64,000 nt of DNA from an uncultured Alphaproteobacteria bacterium (GTDB lineage Bacteria; Pseudomonadota; Alphaproteobacteria; Rhodobacterales; Rhodobacteraceae). The stretch is from contig CACKLF010000003.1 in assembly GCA_902600895.1 (NCBI GenBank), positions 1 to 64,000 on the forward strand. The letters are read 5' to 3'. The first letter of the stretch is position 1. Every line of letters starts with the position of its first letter. Under the pieces are notes generated by a model. The model was not told the DNA's origin, made no database searches, and saw nothing but the letters and a program-made list of their open reading frames with translations. Both the position numbers and the translations under genes were made by a program. Shown in pieces: positions 34,381-61,059 of this stretch.

Positions 34381-35002
34381 AAATTATCAGTTTCCCAGGT
34401 CTATCAATTTTTGACATATAATTATGATCATCAATAGCAATTACTTCTATAATATTTAACGACACAAGTTTTTCTATGAATTTATTGTAGTCTTGTAATG
34501 CAAATGGCTCAGCATTCATGAAAATAACAACAATAGATCCCTGAGAGACAAAATCTACTAAAGTTTTAAGTGATTCTGGTCCAATATGACCCATTCCAAA
34601 ACTACCAACGCACATAAGCACATCGAATGTCTCATTGATGGAATTATCTAAATCTTCCACTCTTTTCTTATATAATTTTTTATATATGCCCTTCCCCTCT
34701 GCGATAGCTATCATTTTAGATGAAACATCTAGGCCTGTAATGTTTAAAAATCCTAGCGAAATCAATTTTTCAGCAACGAGTCCAGTACCGCAACCAATAT
34801 CAATAATTTCACAATCTTTTCTAGTTTCATACTTAAGCAATGCTTCAGATGCTATAATATGAGCACAGTAACCATATTCGTTTAATAGTTCATTTTCGTA
34901 TTTTCTTGCCCAGTTATCGTAATGGGATTCGGGATCTATTTTGACATCTTTTCCAGATACGGCAGCTAAATTAGTTCCTATGGACTTTTTATTTATGTTC
35001 AA
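34367..35002 (-). CDS. Class I SAM-dependent methyltransferase
   Basis: 211 aa. The SAM-binding motif I is IDIGCGTGLVAEKL with the ribose-binding acid in GLDVSS; motif post-I and IV follow (NETFDVLMCVG). The opening DNWARKYENELLNEYGY resembles small-molecule methyltransferases of the Williams-Beuren (WBSCR27-like) group. It starts at TTG overlapping the stop of the cyclase gene (TTGA), so it is translationally coupled to it. The acceptor molecule is unknown; the coupling to a cyclase is noteworthy but unexplained. Confidence 0.82.
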   Translation of the reverse strand: MNINKKSIGTNLAAVSGKDVKIDPESHYDNWARKYENELLNEYGYCAHIIASEALLKYETRKDCEIIDIGCGTGLVAEKLISLGFLNITGLDVSSKMIAIAEGKGIYKKLYKKRVEDLDNSINETFDVLMCVGSFGMGHIGPESLKTLVDFVSQGSIVVIFMNAEPFALQDYNKFIEKLVSLNIIEVIAIDDHNYMSKIDRPGKLIIFRRR

Positions 35003-36900
35003 GACTTTATTCCTGCTGATATAAGCATATCTGCCAAATCGGCTAGAAATGTCTGATCTGTCGAAATAAAAGTTTTCATGGATCGCATCATAGACTTGAT
35101 AGTCACGTCATCTTTTAAACTGTGGATTTTTTTAACCAAATCTTTAGCCTTATCACCTTTTGCTTGTTTCATGAGAATATAAGCCATTATTCCCATGGCA
35201 CCAATCTGAGCATCGCCAAAATACTGTTCACTTTCTGAAAGTTCCTTTGCTAATTTAAAAGCTTTCTCATATCGACCAAAACTGGTCAGTGATAATGAGT
35301 AGTTTAATTTTATATTCGCAGGTGGATAAGGAACTAAACTTAAGGCTTTCTGAAAGGTTTTTTGTGCATCATCAGGCATTTGCAATTGAGTAAATGTGTT
35401 CCCAGCCGCACCTAGCGTAGTGATTCCCGTAGGATCTAACTCCACTCCCTTTCTATTATTAAATACAGCTTTCTCAATACGAATAGCATTGGTCATTTCT
35501 GGAAATAATTGTGGCTGTTTAGCTAATAAACCGGCTTTTGTAGTGTAGGCAAATCCATAATCTGGACCACTAATTAGCGCCCGATCTACTAGATTATTCA
35601 TATCTCTAGCTATAAATTGCACTTGGTCTTTTTCCATAAGTCCAGTAATATACTTACATGTCAAATACCAGGCATAATCAACTAAAATTACGGGATTTTC
35701 TGGCTCTAAAAGAAAAAGCTCTTCAAATAACTCAGTTGCCTTAATGACGCCATCCCGGTCACATCTCATATAGTTAATGTGTGCATTTTTTGATATAGAC
35801 CAAGCCTGGGCACTCTTAAAATACTTTCTAGTATCATTTAATTTTTTGCCAGTGGTCAGCTTCACTTGCAACTCGCTGAGAACATTTTCTGCAATATTAT
35901 CTTGAATAGAAAAGATATCATCAAATTCAAAGTCATATTTCTGAGACCAAATTATCTTTGATTTATTCAAATCTGAAAGTTCGACGGTGGTTCTAATTTT
36001 TTGATTAGCTATTTGGTTTGTGCCTGTTAATACAAAACGCACTCCATACCTTTCAACAATTTCCTGATCGATTAATTCTTTTTTAAATATAAAATCACTA
36101 GTACTTCTTGATTGAACTGTAAGCTGAGGATATTGGGATAGATATGATATAATTGTATCTGTCATCCCCTCAGTAACATGCTCATTAGTGTTATCACTGG
36201 AACGATGAATGAAGGGTTTAATTAGCACAGATGGCTTATCACTGACTATAAATTTATCAACATCGTTCTGAAATGCTCTATTTACAACAAAACCTATAAG
36301 GAAGATAAATAAGATGGTGGCAAAAACTAATGCATACAATGGTCTACTTGGTCCTGTTCGAAGAGACCGCTTTTGTGATGGTTCTACCAACACGTCATAT
36401 GCCTGAAAGATATTTTCTTTTACTTTTTGCGTACCAAGATTATTATATTCAAAATTTGTTTTGGATTTAACTAAATCAAAAATTGACTTAGAAACGGTTA
36501 TCCCATTGGCCTGTGATAATGCCTCCAACCTGGCGGCAATGTTAACACCATCACCTAATAGATTTTTGCCCTCCAATATAACATCGCCCATATTTATCCC
36601 TATGCGATATTCGAGTTTAATAAAGTCGCCTTCCCCTTTGTTTCTAAGAATCATTTTCTCTTGAAATTGAACACCTGCTTCAATCGCAGATACAGCACTT
36701 GGAAATTCAGCTAAGATTGAATCTCCACCCGTATTAAATATTCTGCCTTTTTTTATTTTGATTATTTCTTTTAAAATATTAGAACACTCACGAAGACTTT
36801 GTAGTGTGCCATTTTCGTTAGTTTCCATGTGCTTACTGTATGATACAACATCAGTAGCAAAAATTACTGTAATCTTTCTTTCAATATTCTCATCACTCAT
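34999..36900 (-). CDS. Membrane-anchored class III adenylate cyclase with TPR region
   Basis: 633 aa. Residues ~8-170 are a class III cyclase domain with metal aspartates D17 (FATDVVSYS) and D60 (TGGDSILAEF) and the transition-state pair N120 and R124 (GDGVNIAARLE). A single membrane helix lies at ~188-207, after the catalytic domain, so that the C-terminal ~420 residues would be on the other side. That part has a TolB/FlgO-like segment (MTDTIISYLSQYPQL, SQKYDFEFDDIFSIQDNIAENV) and TPR helices. It is the rhizobial type of cyclase. In the position of the adenine-recognising Lys it has Asn, as in the paralogue at 37780. Confidence 0.88.
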   Translation of the reverse strand: MSDENIERKITVIFATDVVSYSKHMETNENGTLQSLRECSNILKEIIKIKKGRIFNTGGDSILAEFPSAVSAIEAGVQFQEKMILRNKGEGDFIKLEYRIGINMGDVILEGKNLLGDGVNIAARLEALSQANGITVSKSIFDLVKSKTNFEYNNLGTQKVKENIFQAYDVLVEPSQKRSLRTGPSRPLYALVFATILFIFLIGFVVNRAFQNDVDKFIVSDKPSVLIKPFIHRSSDNTNEHVTEGMTDTIISYLSQYPQLTVQSRSTSDFIFKKELIDQEIVERYGVRFVLTGTNQIANQKIRTTVELSDLNKSKIIWSQKYDFEFDDIFSIQDNIAENVLSELQVKLTTGKKLNDTRKYFKSAQAWSISKNAHINYMRCDRDGVIKATELFEELFLLEPENPVILVDYAWYLTCKYITGLMEKDQVQFIARDMNNLVDRALISGPDYGFAYTTKAGLLAKQPQLFPEMTNAIRIEKAVFNNRKGVELDPTGITTLGAAGNTFTQLQMPDDAQKTFQKALSLVPYPPANIKLNYSLSLTSFGRYEKAFKLAKELSESEQYFGDAQIGAMGIMAYILMKQAKGDKAKDLVKKIHSLKDDVTIKSMMRSMKTFISTDQTFLADLADMLISAGIKS

Positions 36901-37624: not shown

Positions 37625-37779
37625 TTTAATATTTTTAAAAGTATTTTTACTATTTAGTGAATTGTTAAAGCATAATAATTAACTAAAAAAAATGGTGACA
37701 TCAATAATGATTATTGTACCTATACAATCCACCTAATGATGAATATTATAAAGGTACACTCCTTAATGTGATTCTGATT

Positions 37780-39534
37780 ATGTCCGAAAAAAAAATTGAT
37801 AGAAAAATAGCTGTTATTTTCGTTACCGATGTTGTCGGTTTTAGTAAACTAATGGAAAAAAATGAGGATGCCACCCTTCAAAGCTTTCGAACTTGTAAAG
37901 AAATACTGGAAAAGTTATTCGAGGAACACGGTGGCCGTATTTTTAATACAGCGGGAGATTCTGTATTAGCAGAATTCCAAAGCGCTGTATCAGCTGTTAT
38001 TTGTGCATCTGAGTTTCAAAAACTTTTAAAGGAGCGAAATTCTAATGTAGCTGATGAATCTCAAATGCATTTTAGGATTGGTTTAAATATGGGAGATGTA
38101 ATAGTAGAAGGAGAAAATCTTTACGGTGATGGGGTGAACGTAGCTGCTCGGCTTGAGGCACTTTCACAGCCTGACGGTGTCTGTTTATCCAAAAGCATAC
38201 ACGACTTTGTCGCGCAAAAAACAGATTTAATTTTTAATGATATCGGTGATCAAAAGGTTAAAAATACTGAAGTGCATGCATTTGATCTCTCACTTACCGG
38301 CCTTGAAAAGAGAGAAGTTGAAATTTCAGGAAAGGAAAACAGTGAAAGCGGCAAGCCACCCTCAATCGCGGTTTTACCATTTTTAAATCTAAGTAATGAC
38401 GATGAACAGGAATATTTTGCCGATGGCATAACGGAGGATATAATATCTAATTTATCGCTTTGGAAAACATTCCCAGTTATTTCTAGAAACTCTTCATTCA
38501 GCTTCAAAGGAGCAAAAGAGAGGTCAGGCGAAATTGCTAAAAAATTAGGTGCTGACTATCTTGTAGAAGGGAGTGTTAGAAAAGGAGGAAATAAGGTACG
38601 CATAACGGCTCAACTTACTTTTGCTCCTGAAGAAAAGCAAATATGGTCAAAGCGATGGGATAGATCATTAGAAGATATTTTTGAAGTTCAAGATGAGGTT
38701 TCTCAGGATGTGGCAGCTTTGATTTCTCCAGCTTTGAAAGATCAAGAGCGGGTTAAATTATCTAACAAGCCAAAAAAGAATTTTGGTGCTTGGGATGAAT
38801 ATTTACAAGGCTTAGCTATTTATAATGGACAAAGGTTTACTGAGCATGCCGGAACAGTCATTGAACATTGTAAAAAAGCTATAGAACTTGATGCTAATTT
38901 TTGTGATGCTTATGTTTTGTACTGTACTGCCCTACAATTTGCAATATATAATCATGAACAACAAGATGACAGAGCTGATAATGAGCGCTTGTTTCATCAA
39001 TTAGCTGAAAAAGCAGTTGATCTGGACCCTGAGAATCCTGACGCACTATCAACACTAAGCTTATCGTACAGTATTAAAAAAGATTATGCAAAACGGTTAG
39101 AGCTCGCAGAGAAGGCCTTAGAAATAAATCCTAACCACCCTCGAACAAATTTCCAATACGGTCAAGCTTTGTCTAACTTTGGAAGATTTGAAGAAACCCT
39201 CCATCATGTTAATAAAGCAATTGAGTTAGATCCCATATCAAAAAGAAATTATGAGGGTTTTTATGTGTTACTTTATATAGCATTAAACGATTGGAATAAC
39301 GCTTTAAATTGGTGTGATATACTTCATGAAAGAGATCCCCATTCACGATTTTTGGGATGGAGGGCTGCAATATTAGCCATGAAAGGCGATGCTGATACAG
39401 CTAAGGAATATCTCGCAAAATATCAAAAAGAGCGTCCAGAAATAAAAACTGCTTCTGATTATGAAAAAGTAGCGCCTACAATAATTAAAGATGTTCTATT
39501 AGAGGGCTTAGTAAAAGCTGGGTTGCCAGAATAA
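37780..39534 (+). CDS. Soluble class III adenylate cyclase with TolB-like and TPR regions
   Basis: 584 aa from the ATG at 37780; this start aligns with the paralogue at 34999-36900 (MSEKKIDRKI versus MSDENIERKI), while an ORF start 22 codons earlier does not. Cyclase domain at ~8-175 with D17 and D60 (TAGDSVLAEF) and NVAARLEAL. Residues ~190-330 are the TolB N-like/FlgO-like segment (PPSIAVLPFLNLSND, FADGITEDIISNLS, IWSKRWDRSLEDIFEVQDEV). TPR helices fill the rest (e.g. EKALEINPNHPRTNFQYGQAL). No membrane helix. Probably makes cAMP in response to a partner bound by the C-terminal region. Confidence 0.88.
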   Translation: MSEKKIDRKIAVIFVTDVVGFSKLMEKNEDATLQSFRTCKEILEKLFEEHGGRIFNTAGDSVLAEFQSAVSAVICASEFQKLLKERNSNVADESQMHFRIGLNMGDVIVEGENLYGDGVNVAARLEALSQPDGVCLSKSIHDFVAQKTDLIFNDIGDQKVKNTEVHAFDLSLTGLEKREVEISGKENSESGKPPSIAVLPFLNLSNDDEQEYFADGITEDIISNLSLWKTFPVISRNSSFSFKGAKERSGEIAKKLGADYLVEGSVRKGGNKVRITAQLTFAPEEKQIWSKRWDRSLEDIFEVQDEVSQDVAALISPALKDQERVKLSNKPKKNFGAWDEYLQGLAIYNGQRFTEHAGTVIEHCKKAIELDANFCDAYVLYCTALQFAIYNHEQQDDRADNERLFHQLAEKAVDLDPENPDALSTLSLSYSIKKDYAKRLELAEKALEINPNHPRTNFQYGQALSNFGRFEETLHHVNKAIELDPISKRNYEGFYVLLYIALNDWNNALNWCDILHERDPHSRFLGWRAAILAMKGDADTAKEYLAKYQKERPEIKTASDYEKVAPTIIKDVLLEGLVKAGLPE

Positions 39535-39633: not shown

Positions 39634-41481
39634 ATGAAAAATTCCAAAACAGTATTAATCGATAAAAATCCTGGTAGAAATTCTCAAACCTATGGGATTG
39701 CACGAGAACTAGGTACTGATCTTGATTTAATACATCAACCATCAGTCGGCGTTTTGGGAAATAAAGGAGACTCACAGTGTTACATGGGTGTTTCGGAGAA
39801 AGTGAATACAATTCATGATTCATTAAAAAAAAGGGTTGGCACAAACCCTAAGCAGCTTAAAATGCGCTTAATTCAACCTGAGTTTACAATAGCCACATCC
39901 GATGGCATTCGGAATGGTACAAAGGAAATGCGTTACTCTCTTATAGGACGTGAAGTAACTAATGATTCAGTATGCGAGCATTTGAGTGCATCTGGGGTTG
40001 AAGGTACTATAGCCGTGGTTGCATGTGACAAACCTCCAGTGGGAACATTAGCTGCAATTCTGGAGCACAACAGACCGGCAATAATCATGTCTGATGGATC
40101 TATTCGGCCTGGCAAGGACTCCGAGACTGGTGAAAGCATAGATATTATTTCTAGTTATCAAATTGCTGGTAGCAAAAATGAAGATCTGAAAGAGAGAATA
40201 GCAAAGGAAGCTTGTCCGGGATATGGAAGTTGTGGCGGTATGTTTACCTATAATACTATGCAAACATTTATTGGTGTTGTTGGAATGCAGCCACTCCATA
40301 TGGTTTCTCCAGCATCAGAGGATATTCGAAGAATAGAAATTTTTCCTAATGAATTAGTTGATTTATTGTCAAATTTGATCAAAAAAAATATTTTACCCAG
40401 AGACATTGTTACTAAAGACTCCATTAGAAATGCAATTGTGGTTTCTATGGCAGTAGGAGGATCAACCAATGTCATGCTACATGCTCCAGAAATATCTCGT
40501 GCAGCTGGATATAGTAAATTCTCAGAAGATATTATGTCTATTGATGAATTTAACCATTTATCAAAAAATGTGATACCAGTGGTAGTCAATGCCCGTCCAT
40601 TTGGCCAATATTCAATGGTTGATATAGATGAAAAAGGAGGAATACAAGTAATAGTCAAAGACTTATTGGATGCTGGCCTTTTGAATGGTGAAGTAATGAC
40701 ATGTACTGGTGAGACTTTGTCGAAACAAATTGACAGACTATCTCCTCCAAAACCTGATGGTGAAGTTATTTACAGTGTTGAAAACCCTTTTAAACCGACT
40801 GGTGGGCTTCGTGTGCTCGGGGGAAATTTGTCACCAGACTCAAGCGCAATTTTGAAATTAGCGGGAGTAGAAGGAGGCTTAGAAAACAACATTTTTGTTG
40901 GAAAAGCTAAAACCTTTGATGGAGAACAAAAACTACTCGAAACATTAGATAATACCCCTGAAGTTTTTCAAAACAATGATATTGTAGTTGTACGCTATGA
41001 AGGCCCAGTAGGAGGGCCAGGAATGCCTGAAATGTTAGATTCTACTTCCAGAATTACTACTCTTTGTAGAGAAAGAAATATTACCGTGGCCCTGATGACT
41101 GATGGTCGTTTTTCTGGTGGATCTGTAGGCCTGGTAATTGGCCATGTCGGACCAGAGGCAGCTATTGGGGGTCCAATTGCTCTTATTAAAGAAGGAGATG
41201 ATATTACCGTAGATTTGAATATTAACGAGCTCTCGTGTGAACAGTTGAATGATAAAAATATATATGCTGATCGATTTTCAGAATGGAAAAGTACTGTAGA
41301 AAAAAACGGGGGTTCTCATCCATCCTTGGGTGAGGTAAATACACGATTACTTAATAAAATGCGATTTTCTGCAGTATCGGCAACATATGGAGCGGGAATG
41401 CACCCAAATAGAGAATTATGGGTAAATGAACCAAGAATTTCAGGATCAAATCGTTTCATTCCTGAAAATAAATATCGATAG
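39634..41481 (+). CDS. IlvD/Edd-family dehydratase
   Basis: 615 aa. Dihydroxy-acid/sugar-acid dehydratase family with the three cluster cysteines in place: C49 (GDSQCYMG), C131 (VACDKPPVG) and C200 (GSCGGMFTYNT). The first two motifs differ from biosynthetic IlvD (usually NTCNMH and CDKNMPG), and the conserved C-terminal FSGGSVGLVIGHVGPEA is present. I therefore read it as a divergent family member, perhaps a sugar-acid or other hydroxy-acid dehydratase, rather than the valine/isoleucine enzyme. A GGGAGAAAAA ribosome site precedes the ATG. Confidence 0.85.
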   Translation: MKNSKTVLIDKNPGRNSQTYGIARELGTDLDLIHQPSVGVLGNKGDSQCYMGVSEKVNTIHDSLKKRVGTNPKQLKMRLIQPEFTIATSDGIRNGTKEMRYSLIGREVTNDSVCEHLSASGVEGTIAVVACDKPPVGTLAAILEHNRPAIIMSDGSIRPGKDSETGESIDIISSYQIAGSKNEDLKERIAKEACPGYGSCGGMFTYNTMQTFIGVVGMQPLHMVSPASEDIRRIEIFPNELVDLLSNLIKKNILPRDIVTKDSIRNAIVVSMAVGGSTNVMLHAPEISRAAGYSKFSEDIMSIDEFNHLSKNVIPVVVNARPFGQYSMVDIDEKGGIQVIVKDLLDAGLLNGEVMTCTGETLSKQIDRLSPPKPDGEVIYSVENPFKPTGGLRVLGGNLSPDSSAILKLAGVEGGLENNIFVGKAKTFDGEQKLLETLDNTPEVFQNNDIVVVRYEGPVGGPGMPEMLDSTSRITTLCRERNITVALMTDGRFSGGSVGLVIGHVGPEAAIGGPIALIKEGDDITVDLNINELSCEQLNDKNIYADRFSEWKSTVEKNGGSHPSLGEVNTRLLNKMRFSAVSATYGAGMHPNRELWVNEPRISGSNRFIPENKYR

Positions 41482-44866: not shown

Positions 44867-46585
44867 ATGACAGAGGACTTAAATTCAATAATAAGAAGGC
44901 TAAGGGCGTTATCAGGAATAATACTTTTTATTTATGCTATAACCCACTTAATTAACCATTCGCTTAATGTTTACTCTATTGAGCTTGCCGATTTTGTTAG
45001 AGAACATTATTGGCAACCAATATGGAAAAATTCACTCGGAACTTTTCTGCTTTATGGCTCACTTATCGTCCACATACCAATCGGTTTTTATAGTATAGCA
45101 TCTAAAAAATCATTTAGATTAACTGCTAGAGAATGGGTTCAATTAACTTTTCCAGTGTTGGCACTATTATTATTACTTCAACATATCTTAGGAGGATACA
45201 TTTTAAACAGAATGTTTGAAAGCAATTTTGGTTACCAAGCTCTTTTTTCTAGTATATTGTCAGAACCCGCCGAGGCCACTATAGGAACAATACTTTTTAC
45301 CCTAATGGTCATATTTATATGGACACATGGTGTTATCGGAATCAACCAACTGTTAAAATTTAATTTTCAAAATTATGATAAGTTCAAATTGGGCTTAAAC
45401 GTTATATATTATGCAGTACCTTCTCTTGCATTGGCTGGACTCTGGGCTGGCTTAAAGGAACAAAGTCTACTAGCCCAGTTCAAGGCTATACAAGGTGAAG
45501 AAGGCTTTTTAATGACAGTTTTAGGGAAGATTATACCAGCAGAGGCCTTCCCCTACCTTTTACCAATAGAACCATTAGTAATGAATAATTATCCTTTGGT
45601 TGTTTTAGCACTAATTATCCTAACAACAATGAATGTATTACGCTCTAAGTATATTGGAAATATTAAAATCTCTTATCCCGAAGGCAGAGAAGTTACGGTT
45701 GCAAAAGGTACCTCAATATTGGAAGCGAGCCGTTTGGCCAAAATCCCCCATCAGTCGGTTTGTGGAGGTAAAGCCAGATGTACAACCTGTCGCGTGAGAG
45801 TTATTTCACATGATGGGAATTTACCGAATCCTAATGCTTACGAGACAATGGCGATAAAAAAAGGTGGGCTTGAAGATGGAGTGAGGCTTGCTTGTCAGCT
45901 TCATCCAGCAGGAAATATAAAGATAATGCCATTAGTTAACCCTATAAATGTTCTTGAAAGAAATTCAAGTTTAGACGGCTTGTCTAAGCCAAAAGCTTTA
46001 TCAGGCAAGGAACTTGAAACAGTAATACTTTTTATTGATTTAAGAGAATTTACTAAACTCTCTGAAAAAAAATTACCCTATGATATTGTGTATATTTTAA
46101 ATAGATATTACGCAACATGTGGTGAAATAATTGAGCGAAATGGTGGGAGACTTGATAAATTTATAGGTGATGGAATTATGGCTATATTTGACAATAACTC
46201 ATCAGCTCATACGATTTATAACGCATCTTTAAAATCTGCTTCTGAAATCTCCAAAAGGATGAAAGCTCTGAATTCAGAGCTAAGTGAAGATCTTTCTGAA
46301 AAACTAAAGTTTGGAATGGGAATTCACGCAGGTGATACCATTGTTGGCCTCATGGGATATGGTGAAACTTTTTCAGAAACAGCAGTTGGGGACAACGTTA
46401 ATATCGCAAGTAGGTTGGAAGAGTTAACAAAAGCATACAAAGCGGAACTTGTTGTATCAAAATATGTTGTAGACTCTGCTGCCATAAATGTGGACAACTT
46501 TTCTATGGATTCAGTTTCCATTAGAGGTAAAGATGAGAAAGTAGACATTTATACAATTAATGATGCATCTCGAATTTTTGCTTAG
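44867..46585 (+). CDS. Membrane diheme-anchor/ferredoxin/class IIIb adenylate cyclase (CyaC-like)
   Basis: 572 aa. Residues ~12-260 form about six membrane helices with candidate heme-ligand histidines H27/H31, H69, H106 and H154, resembling the diheme-B anchor of succinate dehydrogenase and the quinone-responsive CyaC cyclase of Sinorhizobium. Residues ~265-358 are a plant-type [2Fe-2S] ferredoxin with C299, C305, C308 and C343. Residues ~385-560 are the cyclase, with metal aspartates D391 and D435, base-recognising K431 (DKFIGDG), a Thr in the partner position (class IIIb) and NIASRLE. Predicted role: cAMP output controlled by quinone or heme redox state. Its ferredoxin-cyclase core parallels the CDGSH cyclase at 59290. 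Confidence 0.9.
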   Translation: MTEDLNSIIRRLRALSGIILFIYAITHLINHSLNVYSIELADFVREHYWQPIWKNSLGTFLLYGSLIVHIPIGFYSIASKKSFRLTAREWVQLTFPVLALLLLLQHILGGYILNRMFESNFGYQALFSSILSEPAEATIGTILFTLMVIFIWTHGVIGINQLLKFNFQNYDKFKLGLNVIYYAVPSLALAGLWAGLKEQSLLAQFKAIQGEEGFLMTVLGKIIPAEAFPYLLPIEPLVMNNYPLVVLALIILTTMNVLRSKYIGNIKISYPEGREVTVAKGTSILEASRLAKIPHQSVCGGKARCTTCRVRVISHDGNLPNPNAYETMAIKKGGLEDGVRLACQLHPAGNIKIMPLVNPINVLERNSSLDGLSKPKALSGKELETVILFIDLREFTKLSEKKLPYDIVYILNRYYATCGEIIERNGGRLDKFIGDGIMAIFDNNSSAHTIYNASLKSASEISKRMKALNSELSEDLSEKLKFGMGIHAGDTIVGLMGYGETFSETAVGDNVNIASRLEELTKAYKAELVVSKYVVDSAAINVDNFSMDSVSIRGKDEKVDIYTINDASRIFA

Positions 46586-51640: not shown

Positions 51641-52015
51641 ATGAAAACATCCAAAGATTATCTTGAAGAGGCTAATAAAGTAGTTAGAAAGATTGATTTT
51701 TCTGAAGCTCTGATAAAGCATACTGAAAAAACTGCTATCTTTATAGATGTTAGGGATAGTTCAGAAATTGCAAAAACTGGTAGCATAACAGACTCTATAA
51801 AAATTCAAAGGGGCTTGATTGAATTTGTAGCAGATGAATCATCCAAGCTTTATAACTTGAAGCTAAAAAAAGACACTGAGATTATTTTAGTCTGTGGAGC
51901 TGGTGGACAAGCAGCTTTAACAGGCAAGACACTCATTGAAATGGGATATAGGAATGTAGCCAATTTAGGAGCAATAGGTGATTGGGAAAAAAATGGAGGA
52001 CCAATGACCAAATAA
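51641..52015 (+). CDS. Single-domain rhodanese-like protein
   Basis: 124 aa. Rhodanese fold with FIDVRDSSEIAKTGSI and active-site cysteine C85 in the loop LVCGAGGQAAL, then NLGAIGDWEKNGGP. Rhodaneses carry sulfane sulfur as a cysteine persulfide. The loop CGAGGQ differs from the CRxGxR of thiosulfate sulfurtransferases, so the acceptor may differ. A GGAGG ribosome site precedes the ATG. Likely cotranscribed with the following alpha/beta hydrolase, about 100 bases on. Confidence 0.85.
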   Translation: MKTSKDYLEEANKVVRKIDFSEALIKHTEKTAIFIDVRDSSEIAKTGSITDSIKIQRGLIEFVADESSKLYNLKLKKDTEIILVCGAGGQAALTGKTLIEMGYRNVANLGAIGDWEKNGGPMTK

Positions 52016-58612: not shown

Positions 58613-59289
58613 TATTTGTTTAAAAAAATAATAACTTAACATTTTTCAGTGACAAGCCTAGTATCAGAGCTATTGCCAAGTTAAGAGCCTGGGAAAACTG
58701 ATCACAGGACTTCAGTGTCAAGTCCAAAAAATCTTAGTTATATGGTCGCAGGTATTCAGTGACAAGCAATGTGATAATTCATGATAAATCAAGATTATTT
58801 AAACCTTATAAGCATCTGTTAATTATTGTTAATTACTGAAATTATAGTGCAACCCGCTATTCAATTTTTGCTGCGCCCATGATTAACTTTATGCTAAGCT
58901 TGTGGTTTTAATAATTTAAGCTGCAAGTGCGGCACTTTTTAAAAATGTAAAGATAAAATCTTATCTCACCGCATGAGAGTAAACCAATTTGGCAACACTC
59001 CAACTCATAACATTTTAGTTTTTATAATATTTTCAATTCTAGTTATATTTGTAGATTTTCCATAAAAATGTCATTTTCAATCAAAGTAAGAACTATCCTA
59101 CCAATATTCAATTTAAAGAAAAAATATTAACAAATCTGCATAAAACATATTCATTAATTAAAACGATAGATGTTTACAATTTTATTCTCTTTAATATTAG
59201 CCAGTGAAAGGTTATATCTTCAGACTATTGAGATCTAACTCTATAAAGAAGCAAGCACTTTCAGTTGATCTAGGAGGAAATAATCCGCT
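58613..59289. other. 677-base gap between tRNA-Met and the iron-sulphur cyclase gene
   Basis: No supported gene. It contains three copies of a 12-base motif (listed separately). A short hairpin with a following T run at 58925-58940 (arms AAGTG and CACTT) is a weak terminator candidate, and tandem GTTAATTA copies lie near 58820. The last part holds the AGGAGG ribosome site (59272-59277) of the cyclase. Confidence 0.5.
58645..58766 (+). repeat. Three spaced copies of TTCAGTGACAAG
   Basis: Copies at 58645-58656 and 58755-58766 are exact; that at 58711-58722 has one change (TTCAGTGTCAAG). Spacing is 66 and 44 bases. The last copy directly follows GGTCGCAGGT, which also occurs in the T-arm of the tRNA-Met just upstream. 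Nature unknown: a protein-binding repeat or a decayed duplication. Confidence 0.45.
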
Positions 59290-61059
59290 ATGACTATGAA
59301 AAAACCTTTTGCCGTTGATGTCGTTGAAGGTTCCAACTATTTTTGGTGCAGTTGCGGTCTCAGCAAAAAGCAACCTTTTTGTGATGGAAGTCATGCCGGA
59401 TCAAAATTTTCACCAAAGAAATTTACTGCAACTGAATCTAAAAAAGTATTTTTTTGTGGATGTAAAAAAAGTGCAAATAAGCCTTTTTGTGATGGTACCC
59501 ACAACCAACTAAGCGAAGTACAAAGTTTGAAGGAACCTTTTGCTGTTGATGTGGCTGAGGGTTCCAACTATTTTTGGTGCAGTTGTGGTCTCAGCAAAAA
59601 GCAACCTTTTTGTGATGGAAGTCATGCCGGATCAGAATTTTCACCAAAAAAATTTACTGCAACTGAGTCTAAAAAGGTATTTTTTTGTGGATGTAAAAAA
59701 AGTTCAAATAAACCTTTTTGCGATGGTACCCACAACCAGTTAAGTGACTTGAAAGGTCCAAGCAAATCATTTTTAGCAAATGTACGGCCAGATAACATAA
59801 AGATTGATATATCGTCGGAGGAATCAATTTTAATCGCCTCACTAAGAAATAATCTTAATCATTTAAGCGCTTGTGGAGGAACTGGTAAATGCTCTACCTG
59901 TCGTATTGAGATACTTGAAGGTCTAGAAAATTGCCTGCCTAGAAATAAACTAGAACAGACCCTAGCTGCAAGATTATCATTCCCATCAAATATTCGGTTA
60001 GGATGTCAAACAAAAATAAAAGGGGATGTAACCTACAGAAGGCTTTTACTAGATAAGAAGGACGCTGACTTAAGTAATCAGGTAGCCAATCAAAAACTAG
60101 AGTCTGTTGGAACTATAAGAAATTTAACAATATTATTTTGTGATATAAAAGGTTTTACACCATTCTCTGAATCTCTTTCAGCCTACGATGTGATATTTAT
60201 TTTAAATCGATATATTTCGATTATGCGAGAGATCATTATCGATCATGGAGGAGAAATAAACAACTATATAGGTGACGCAATCCTAGCGATATTTGGTTTA
60301 AAAGAATCAAGACAACAATCTCTAAGAGCTGTAAGTACAGCAACGAAAATGCTAGAAGCAATGGATAATTTTAAGTTATATCTCAAACAGGCGTATGGTC
60401 GAGAATTTGATATAAGGATAGGAATTCATTACGGTGAAGTGATTTCAGGTTCAGTAGGTTTCGGAGAAGACAGAAAAGATACTGTTATTGGAGATGCGGT
60501 AAACATAGCAAGTAGAATAGAGGCAATTAATAAAGAATCTGGCACCAGACTACTTATTTCTGAAAATGTATATGAGCAAGTAAAGAACCATATAAGCGTA
60601 AAGAATTTTCTGCGATTAAAGCTGAGGGGGTCGAGTAACTTGATTACACTCCACGAGGTTAGCCAATTGAAAAGTGACTTCTTAAATTTTAAAGTGATTG
60701 AGGAAGAGAAAATTATTGACAACAGAAAATGGTTCAGAACCTTACCTGTTAGTGAATTAGGCCCAGGTGAAAAGAAGAAGTTCAAATTAAAAAATAGGGA
60801 AATTTTATTAATTAATCAGGGTGACATTTTTGTAATTGAAAATCTTTGTCCTCATATGGATTTACCATTAGACATTGGACAAATTACTGAGGATGATACT
60901 ATTATGTGTCCATATCATAATAGTGAATTCTGTTTTAAAACTGGGGAGGTCAGGAAATGGATCGGTGAGGACCCAAAATTGAAACTAGATGACTGTAAAC
61001 CATTAAAAATAATAAATGTACAGAAACGAGATGATTACATTTGGGTTGCAGAGACATAA
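59290..61059 (+). CDS. Four-CDGSH/ferredoxin/class III nucleotide cyclase/Rieske multi-cluster protein
   Basis: 589 aa, no membrane helix. Residues 4-157 hold four CDGSH [2Fe-2S] motifs: C20-C22-C31-H35, C56-C58-C67-H71, C97-C99-C108-H112 and C133-C135-C144-H148. Residues ~162-250 are a plant-type [2Fe-2S] ferredoxin (C195, C201, C204, C239). Residues ~275-455 are a class III cyclase with metal aspartates D285 and D329 and the transition-state pair N405 and R409. Thr398 marks class IIIb, but the base-recognising Lys is replaced by N325. Residues ~480-587 are a Rieske domain (C520-P-H522, C540-P-Y-H543). All cluster ligands are intact, so up to six [2Fe-2S] clusters are predicted. Start set by AGGAGG 12 bases upstream. 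I infer a cytosolic redox, iron or NO-sensing cyclase. I do not know this architecture from any described protein. Confidence 0.9.
   Translation: MTMKKPFAVDVVEGSNYFWCSCGLSKKQPFCDGSHAGSKFSPKKFTATESKKVFFCGCKKSANKPFCDGTHNQLSEVQSLKEPFAVDVAEGSNYFWCSCGLSKKQPFCDGSHAGSEFSPKKFTATESKKVFFCGCKKSSNKPFCDGTHNQLSDLKGPSKSFLANVRPDNIKIDISSEESILIASLRNNLNHLSACGGTGKCSTCRIEILEGLENCLPRNKLEQTLAARLSFPSNIRLGCQTKIKGDVTYRRLLLDKKDADLSNQVANQKLESVGTIRNLTILFCDIKGFTPFSESLSAYDVIFILNRYISIMREIIIDHGGEINNYIGDAILAIFGLKESRQQSLRAVSTATKMLEAMDNFKLYLKQAYGREFDIRIGIHYGEVISGSVGFGEDRKDTVIGDAVNIASRIEAINKESGTRLLISENVYEQVKNHISVKNFLRLKLRGSSNLITLHEVSQLKSDFLNFKVIEEEKIIDNRKWFRTLPVSELGPGEKKKFKLKNREILLINQGDIFVIENLCPHMDLPLDIGQITEDDTIMCPYHNSEFCFKTGEVRKWIGEDPKLKLDDCKPLKIINVQKRDDYIWVAET
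59299..59760 (+). repeat. Tandem duplication of the double-CDGSH segment (2 x 231 bases)
   Basis: Codons 4-80 and 81-157 of the cyclase gene are direct repeats. By hand count the first 216 bases differ at 17 positions (about 92% identical); 13 changes are silent and only four alter the residue (K5E, V12A, K39E, A62S). All 16 cluster ligands are kept. The excess of silent changes points to selection for function of both copies after duplication, or ongoing gene conversion. Confidence 0.9.

Follow-up and report, generated by a model that had tools for sequence, protein, structure and literature searches.

A class III nucleotide cyclase fused to four CDGSH motifs, a ferredoxin domain and a Rieske domain in an alphaproteobacterial genome

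Gene and domain architecture

We examined a 64,000-nucleotide stretch of DNA from an uncultured member of the Rhodobacteraceae (positions 1 to 64,000 of contig CACKLF010000003.1, GenBank assembly GCA_902600895.1), referred to here as the window. One open reading frame encodes a 589-residue protein in which iron–sulfur domains stand on both sides of a nucleotide cyclase domain. The features of this gene are listed below, with conservation counted over the 70 aligned relatives described in the next section.

59290..61059, + strand: CDGSH(4)-Fer2-cyclase-Rieske gene, 589 residues, ATG start (open reading frame list and Pfam)
59272..59277, + strand: AGGAGG ribosome-binding-like site, 12 bases 5′ of the ATG (read from the sequence)
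59303..59738, + strand: 231-bp tandem duplication, 1.9 copies, 94% matches, which doubles the CDGSH pair
59347..59502, + strand: CDGSH pair A, residues 20-71 (C20/C22/C31/H35 and C56/C58/C67/H71)
59578..59733, + strand: CDGSH pair B, residues 97-148 (C97/C99/C108/H112 and C133/C135/C144/H148)
59782..60021, + strand: Fer2 plant-type [2Fe-2S] domain, residues 165-244 (Pfam; Cys195/201/204/239 kept in 70/70 rows)
60022..60114, + strand: Fer2-cyclase linker, residues 245-275, a proposed switch (alignment and AlphaFold model)
60115..60645, + strand: class III nucleotide cyclase domain, residues 276-452 (Pfam, alignment and fold matches)
60727..60960, + strand: Rieske [2Fe-2S] domain, residues 480-557 (Pfam; Cys520/His522/Cys540/His543 kept in 70/70 rows)

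All of the domain assignments score above the curated Pfam cut-offs: zf-CDGSH over four stretches (1.9e-36), Guanylate_cyc over residues 276-452 (4.4e-25), Rieske over 480-557 (1.2e-15, with an overlapping Rieske_2 match likewise above its cut-off) and Fer2 over 165-244 (1.8e-7). Each CDGSH set has the ligand spacing C-x-C-x8-C-x3-H, and 20 residues separate the two motifs of each pair (H35 to C56 and H112 to C133). The plant-type Fer2 signature C-x5-C-x2-C is formed by Cys195, Cys201 and Cys204, with Cys239 as the fourth ligand, and the Rieske signature C-x-H ... C-x-x-H by Cys520, His522, Cys540 and His543. The cyclase domain contains both metal-binding aspartates (Asp285 and Asp329) and the Asn/Arg transition-state pair (Asn405 and Arg409). 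A preliminary description, made from the sequence alone, had named all four of these elements, and each is borne out. It had also called the ribosome site strong; the AGGAGG is real, at a distance from the ATG that is a little far. Three features had escaped it: the tandem duplication of the CDGSH block at the DNA level, the Asn at purine-selecting position 325, and a CyaC-like Fer2-cyclase encoded in the window. Promoter and terminator scans stayed at chance level, with 12 promoter-like hits against 11.2 expected and one terminator-like hit against 1.3.

Solved sequences that match the protein include class III cyclases, human CISD3 (6avj), an unnamed chain (3tbn) over the CDGSH part, Rieske-type dioxygenase ferredoxin subunits and an adrenodoxin-like protein. 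In a fold search, the top matches include 2w01 and 3r5g, both to the cyclase domain. Because the fold-search lists are filled by cyclase matches, the absence of the other domains from them is meaningless, and the CDGSH, Fer2 and Rieske assignments are drawn from sequence evidence. The protein has no hydrophobic segment above 1.6 in a 19-residue hydropathy window (best window 1.12), and none of the five Pfam families that it matches is heme-binding. Chance motif matches as the source of the domains are excluded by the Pfam scores together with the conservation of the ligands. On these grounds, the presence of six predicted cluster-binding sites of three kinds and a class III cyclase in one open reading frame is confirmed as real.

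Relatives and step-wise history

A search of about 5.8 billion proteins, in which 7998 candidates were scored, returned at least 2550 relatives at E ≤ 0.001; the best 120 rows, the window protein included, were analysed. The preliminary description had called for a domain-architecture search, and here PF00111, PF09360, PF00211 and PF00355 occur together in 114 of the 120 rows, that is, in all except P0083, P0098, P0107, P0110, P0112 and P0120. By ligand pattern, four CDGSH sets are present in 49 rows, three in 1, two in 67, one in 1 and none in 2. The counts are not independent, as many of the rows with four sets are nearly identical to one another.

Conservation was read from an alignment of 76 rows, of which 70 belong to the best 120 and were counted; near-duplicates and short rows were excluded, and the counted rows reach down to 58% identity. 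The ligands of pair A are kept in 17/17 rows that reach them (His71 in 17/18), and those of pair B in 70/70 (Cys108 in 69/70). Asp285, Asp329, Asn405 and Arg409 are each present in 70/70. Mean column identity is 0.85 in the cyclase domain, compared with 0.70-0.76 in the iron–sulfur domains and 0.77 in the linker at 245-275. Since cluster ligands and catalytic residues are conserved jointly, both seem to be under joint selection. A fifth cysteine of the Fer2 domain, residue 215 (window 59932-59934), lies outside the ligand pattern and is kept in 70/70 rows; a cysteine at this position is missing in three CDGSH-free SAR116 paralogues (L010, L011 and L014).

Hosts were surveyed with one genome per species over 84,980 species, and the best 80 of 369 loci were considered; as the seed patterns came from the window protein alone, distant carriers were missed. 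Five of these loci (L005-L009) match from residue 1 to residues 586-588, with 66-73% identity in the best segment. Three of them are labelled SAR116 cluster, which is marine, one Alphaproteobacteria and one Rhodobacteraceae. Within the GTDB order of the window, a whole-length match was found in the window's own genome only, of 390 genomes (389 of them at least 90% complete), and among 385 genomes of the class only in the own genome and one other (G644). The own genome assembly is 1.59 Mb and 60% complete; to judge by its relatives, it is probably that of a marine alphaproteobacterium.

The architectures fall into a series. Among the best 120 of 6410 matches to a Bacteriovoracales relative (L012), Fer2-cyclase forms of about 305 residues occur in Desulfobacterota, Blastocatellia and Microcoleus, and Fer2-cyclase-Rieske forms of about 420-466 residues in Stappia sediminis, Rhizobiales, Chloroflexi and Bacteriovoracales. 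The three SAR116 paralogues mentioned above, from the species survey, are also Fer2-cyclase-Rieske proteins, and the series continues with forms that carry two and then four CDGSH motifs. The soluble proteins without CDGSH domains (for example, P0174 from Blastocatellia, P0204 from Stappia sediminis and P0121 from Bacteriovoracales) have the same core as the window protein and differ from it in this lack. Rieske ligands are kept in 54 of 55 fetched CDGSH-free proteins of 420-479 residues. Seven proteins (P0138, P0167, P0169, P0173, P0204, P0205 and P0213) are Rieske-bearing; six have a wider ligand spacing and P0138 lacks one cysteine. In a tree of 69 of 74 Fer2-cyclase cores, from which P0142 and four CyaC-like rows (L090, L129, L130 and L132) were excluded, the 19 CDGSH carriers group in a single clade (100/100), which has Fer2-cyclase-Rieske proteins beside it. 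The preliminary description had presented a single odd protein; judged by its sequence relatives, it is instead a member of a family whose step-wise history is visible.

The two CDGSH pairs of the window protein bear on the last step of this series. The two copies differ at 17 of the 71 codons compared, and 12 of these differences are synonymous, so the doubling looks real, still young and under purifying selection. Pair identity across the 49 four-CDGSH proteins is 96% in the window protein, 93% in P0014, 91% in P0034 and 56-66% in the other 46. We built a tree of 43 pairs from 12 of the 49 four-CDGSH proteins and 19 two-CDGSH proteins (68 columns; 13 of 36 inner branches open). In it, the window protein's two pairs are sister to each other (98/84), the pairs of P0014 and P0034 make a group of their own (95/88), and in an older group the A pairs and the B pairs fall into distinct clades. 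From these sequences, two CDGSH motifs thus seem to have become four at least three times, by whole pairs, unless gene conversion homogenised old copies. Growth by whole pairs is consistent with one published view, according to which CDGSH modules must come in pairs (PMC3174974).

An assembly artefact, in which the true gene would have only two CDGSH motifs, is very improbable. The repeat copies do match at 94%, the twelve nearest relatives among those listed carry one CDGSH pair, and the nearest of all (P0002, 87%) comes from a contig of 1,756 bases and may be truncated. The 17 codon differences, 12 of them silent, would not be expected from a duplicated stretch of reads, however, and four motifs are found in 49 of the best 120 rows (the window protein's own included), with pairs that are only 56-66% identical in 46 of them.

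One relative appears to have moved in the other direction. At its start, P0109 (506 residues) is similar to the first pair of relatives with four CDGSH motifs, and its motif pair groups with their second pairs; by sequence it looks like a contraction, as if recombination had deleted one CDGSH pair. In the window's own genome, all four CDGSH matches at E ≤ 0.001 lie within the 589-residue gene, and no stand-alone CDGSH protein was found at that threshold in the 60%-complete assembly.

Redox gating and competing readings

The Fer2-cyclase core has a known counterpart in CyaC of Sinorhizobium meliloti, described as a class III adenylate cyclase with a six-helix diheme-B anchor and a [2Fe-2S] cluster, whose redox sensitivity is ascribed to its two hemes (PMC10463352). 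The window encodes a protein that resembles it as well.

44867..46585, + strand: CyaC-like protein with hydrophobic N-terminus, Fer2 and cyclase, 572 residues; homologous in the core and separate from the system of the 589-residue gene

The hydrophobic N-terminal half of this protein has four segments above 1.6 and a hydropathy maximum of 2.05 in the same 19-residue window. The two window proteins share 30% identity over 296 residues through Fer2, linker and cyclase. In both of them the Fer2 domain stands directly before the cyclase, and S. meliloti CyaC is likened to them by its description, which places a class III cyclase and a [2Fe-2S] cluster within one protein. The 589-residue protein, in contrast, lacks the hydrophobic diheme anchor of CyaC; it has CDGSH pairs there and a Rieske domain behind the cyclase. 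The purine position is Lys in the CyaC-like window protein and Asn in the 589-residue protein. Two more Fer2-cyclases, of 564 and 570 residues, are encoded elsewhere in the own genome (C9 10361 and C2 11897). In the core tree, seven CyaC-like membrane forms make a separate clade (100/100). As judged by sequence, the core of the 589-residue protein is related to the CyaC-type redox cyclases.

The linker between Fer2 and cyclase (residues 245-275) contains residues L253-K256 and D258, which are invariant (1.00) in the 70-row alignment. In the AlphaFold model (pTM 0.52), the domains are folded and the linkers between them, at 72-79, 150-157 and 254-273, have low confidence, with a pLDDT below 50 at 254-273. 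A linker that is conserved yet modelled with low confidence might fit a moving part, and low confidence alone proves nothing. The preliminary description had suggested an internal electron wire; with its low-confidence linkers and a pTM of 0.52, the model gives no evidence that the clusters are held in a fixed chain.

We propose, at a probability of roughly 0.6, that the 589-residue protein is a cytoplasmic redox sensor whose cluster state switches cyclic-nucleotide synthesis on or off, and we infer redox gating to be its most likely function. Cyclisation of a nucleoside triphosphate is not a redox reaction. For this reason, there is no chemical need for the clusters to feed nucleotide synthesis, as had been suggested, and gating is the sensible link between clusters and cyclase. 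The simplest scheme would be a soluble version of CyaC, in which the CDGSH and Rieske domains replace the membrane heme as input and the Fer2-linker-cyclase output is the same. The clusters would be filled at all six sites, and, bacterial class III enzymes being homodimeric, the protein would probably form a homodimer with as many as twelve [2Fe-2S] clusters. Electrons would pass between carriers or oxidants of the cell and the CDGSH and Rieske clusters, and Fer2, beside the catalytic domain, would relay the cluster state through the conserved linker. By analogy with CyaC, which is activatable after oxidation, oxidised clusters may be the "on" state. Reported cluster potentials are −31 mV for CISD3 (PMC10937110) and about −30 mV for mitoNEET (PMC9490426). 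In the cytoplasm of a healthy cell, CDGSH clusters with a potential near −30 mV would be reduced, and stress would oxidise them, which would suit a switch. Oxidation of its clusters has been suggested to change the conformation of human CISD3, a protein with two CDGSH domains (PMC10937110).

The same literature supports a second, less probable reading, in which the signal is the loss or nitrosylation of labile CDGSH clusters and the cyclase would respond to a shortage of iron, to peroxide or to nitric oxide (NO). The protein would then work like a heme-free counterpart of the NO-sensing guanylate cyclase. Iron chelators strip the CISD3 clusters and unfold the protein, only reduced CISD3 binds NO, and in cells NO and not peroxide destabilises it (PMC10937110); reduced mitoNEET binds NO reversibly (PMC9490426). 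Repeated doubling of the CDGSH pair would fit the tuning of a labile sensor. Left unexplained are the equally strict retention of the Fer2 and Rieske ligands and the existence of CDGSH-free Fer2-cyclase and Fer2-cyclase-Rieske forms. Because CISD3 is reported to be indifferent to peroxide and sensitive to NO (PMC10937110), we leave this reading a quarter of the weight. The comparison with NO-sensing soluble guanylate cyclase is one of working principle only: in both, a metal cofactor is the proposed sensor of a class III cyclase, whereas the heme NO-binding domain of that enzyme is replaced here by iron–sulfur clusters, the 589-residue protein has no heme-binding Pfam match, and a homodimer is expected.

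It is improbable that electron transfer comes first, with the protein acting as a multi-cluster ferredoxin for some oxidoreductase and its cyclase loosely coupled or regulated by the partner. The best NCBIfam matches are electron carriers, the HcaC ferredoxin subunit over the Rieske part (1.2e-9) and nqrF over the Fer2 part (3.5e-8), both far below their cut-offs. The cyclase is nevertheless the most conserved part of the protein and is present in all listed forms of the series, and no oxidoreductase recurs as a neighbour in the loci compared.

Several points weigh against redox gating of a cyclase, of which the substrate is one. Purine-selecting residues are described as Lys and Asp in adenylyl cyclases and as Glu with varied residues, Thr included, in guanylyl cyclases (PMC4215837). 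The window protein has Asn325 and Thr398 at these positions, each in 70/70 aligned rows, and not the Lys and Asp of an adenylyl cyclase. The pair matches neither the adenine-selecting residues nor the Glu of guanylyl cyclases, so the substrate is uncertain; this departure concerns the substrate alone. It is found in 115/115 CDGSH-bearing rows readable at both positions (5 more were unreadable) and in 57 of 68 readable CDGSH-free rows (29 more were unreadable); the Stappia sediminis protein P0204 has Leu at the purine position. In two genomes, a two-CDGSH cyclase gene lies between guaB and guaA, 3 bases after guaB (L156 6741-11287 in G644 and L194 1423-4901 in G773). This order occurs in 2 of 10 genomes of the order to which G644 belongs, both of one genus, and a third genome of that genus (64% complete) has no such cyclase. 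Neither gua gene was detected by tblastn in 12 records (the window, L005-L014 and L159). The placement would suit guanosine triphosphate (GTP) as substrate, and we do not rest the case on it.

The other opposing points concern input, output and packing. The two hemes to which the redox sensitivity of CyaC is ascribed (PMC10463352) have no counterpart in the 589-residue protein, and in cells CISD3 is reported to be unaffected by peroxide and destabilised by NO (PMC10937110), which favours the reading as a sensor of NO or cluster occupancy over plain oxidation. The AlphaFold model does not show fixed packing between domains. The open reading frames of ten loci (L005-L014; three of these, L006, L009 and L013, span less than 8 kb) were set against those of the window, and nine neighbours were scanned with Pfam; in neither comparison did a neighbour recur that might point to an electron donor or effector. 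The four cNMP_binding proteins found in the 60%-complete own genome assembly are small and have no second Pfam domain. Finally, we found no biochemical data for any family member.

Surroundings and known CDGSH proteins

In the comparison with the ten loci, window reading frames match, besides the cyclase, only a 124-residue rhodanese-like protein of L009 (62%) and a 333-residue protein of L008 (24%). The rhodanese-like gene adjoins the cyclase gene in L009 (3125-3499); its counterpart in the window lies at 51641-52015, about 7 kb upstream of the cyclase gene. Among the scanned neighbours in L007, a DCC1-like thiol-disulfide oxidoreductase is encoded upstream of the cyclase, as is a class III aminotransferase, and a solute-binding protein is encoded downstream; L008, too, has a class III aminotransferase as a neighbour. 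Between a tRNA-Met gene and that of the cyclase, the repeat TTCAGTGWCAAG occurs in three exact copies (58645-58656, 58711-58722 and 58755-58766), and the rest of the window has none. With one mismatch allowed, 0.63 copies are expected by chance, and three copies were obtained in 1 of 100 shuffles. The own genome contains 13 class III cyclase domains. Two proteins of more than 600 residues with an N-terminal cyclase domain are encoded close together in the window (34999-36900, − strand, and 37714-39534, + strand), the second with TPR repeats. A 615-residue protein at 39634-41481 is presumably a dihydroxy-acid dehydratase.

Among known CDGSH proteins, the closest in pattern are the type 6 CISD or CISD3-like proteins, which are defined by two CDGSH motifs about 20 residues apart (PMC3174974). 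The ligand pattern is identical and the gap is exactly 20 in the 589-residue protein, which differs in having two such pairs and in their fusion to a cyclase. A 2018 survey reports bacterial CDGSH domains together with Rieske-like, Fer4_19 and other domains (PMC5859297), so the pairing of CDGSH with a Rieske-like domain is not new by itself. The main text of that survey does not contain the word "cyclase" (PMC5859297). The preliminary description had known of no CDGSH and Rieske domains on a cyclase; none was found in the titles and abstract openings of the open papers that the literature searches listed, and the claim stands to that extent, while the survey already has the two domains together without a cyclase. 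According to the same survey (PMC5859297), polypeptides with more than two CDGSH domains were not found; the four-CDGSH cyclase family is an exception to this statement.

Cyclases with iron–sulfur clusters or redox control are of a kind already known, and the system is not categorically new. Somewhat more tentatively than redox gating itself, we suggest that these heme-free soluble cyclases may be a new class of sensor, in which NEET-type, ferredoxin and Rieske clusters would turn redox, iron–sulfur or NO state into a cyclic nucleotide, possibly cyclic guanosine monophosphate. Such sensors would be tuned by whole CDGSH pairs and would include the first known four-CDGSH polypeptides, with up to twelve clusters per dimer. 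The functional role of human CISD3 has been called largely unknown (PMC10937110). Here, CDGSH sites are joined to an enzyme whose output is easy to measure, so that a single assay could test what these clusters respond to. Ready-made comparison proteins are offered by the series that runs from Fer2-cyclase to the six-cluster protein, one of them from the named species Stappia sediminis. The hosts, several of which are labelled SAR116 cluster, would gain a cytoplasmic counterpart to the membrane-bound redox cyclases.

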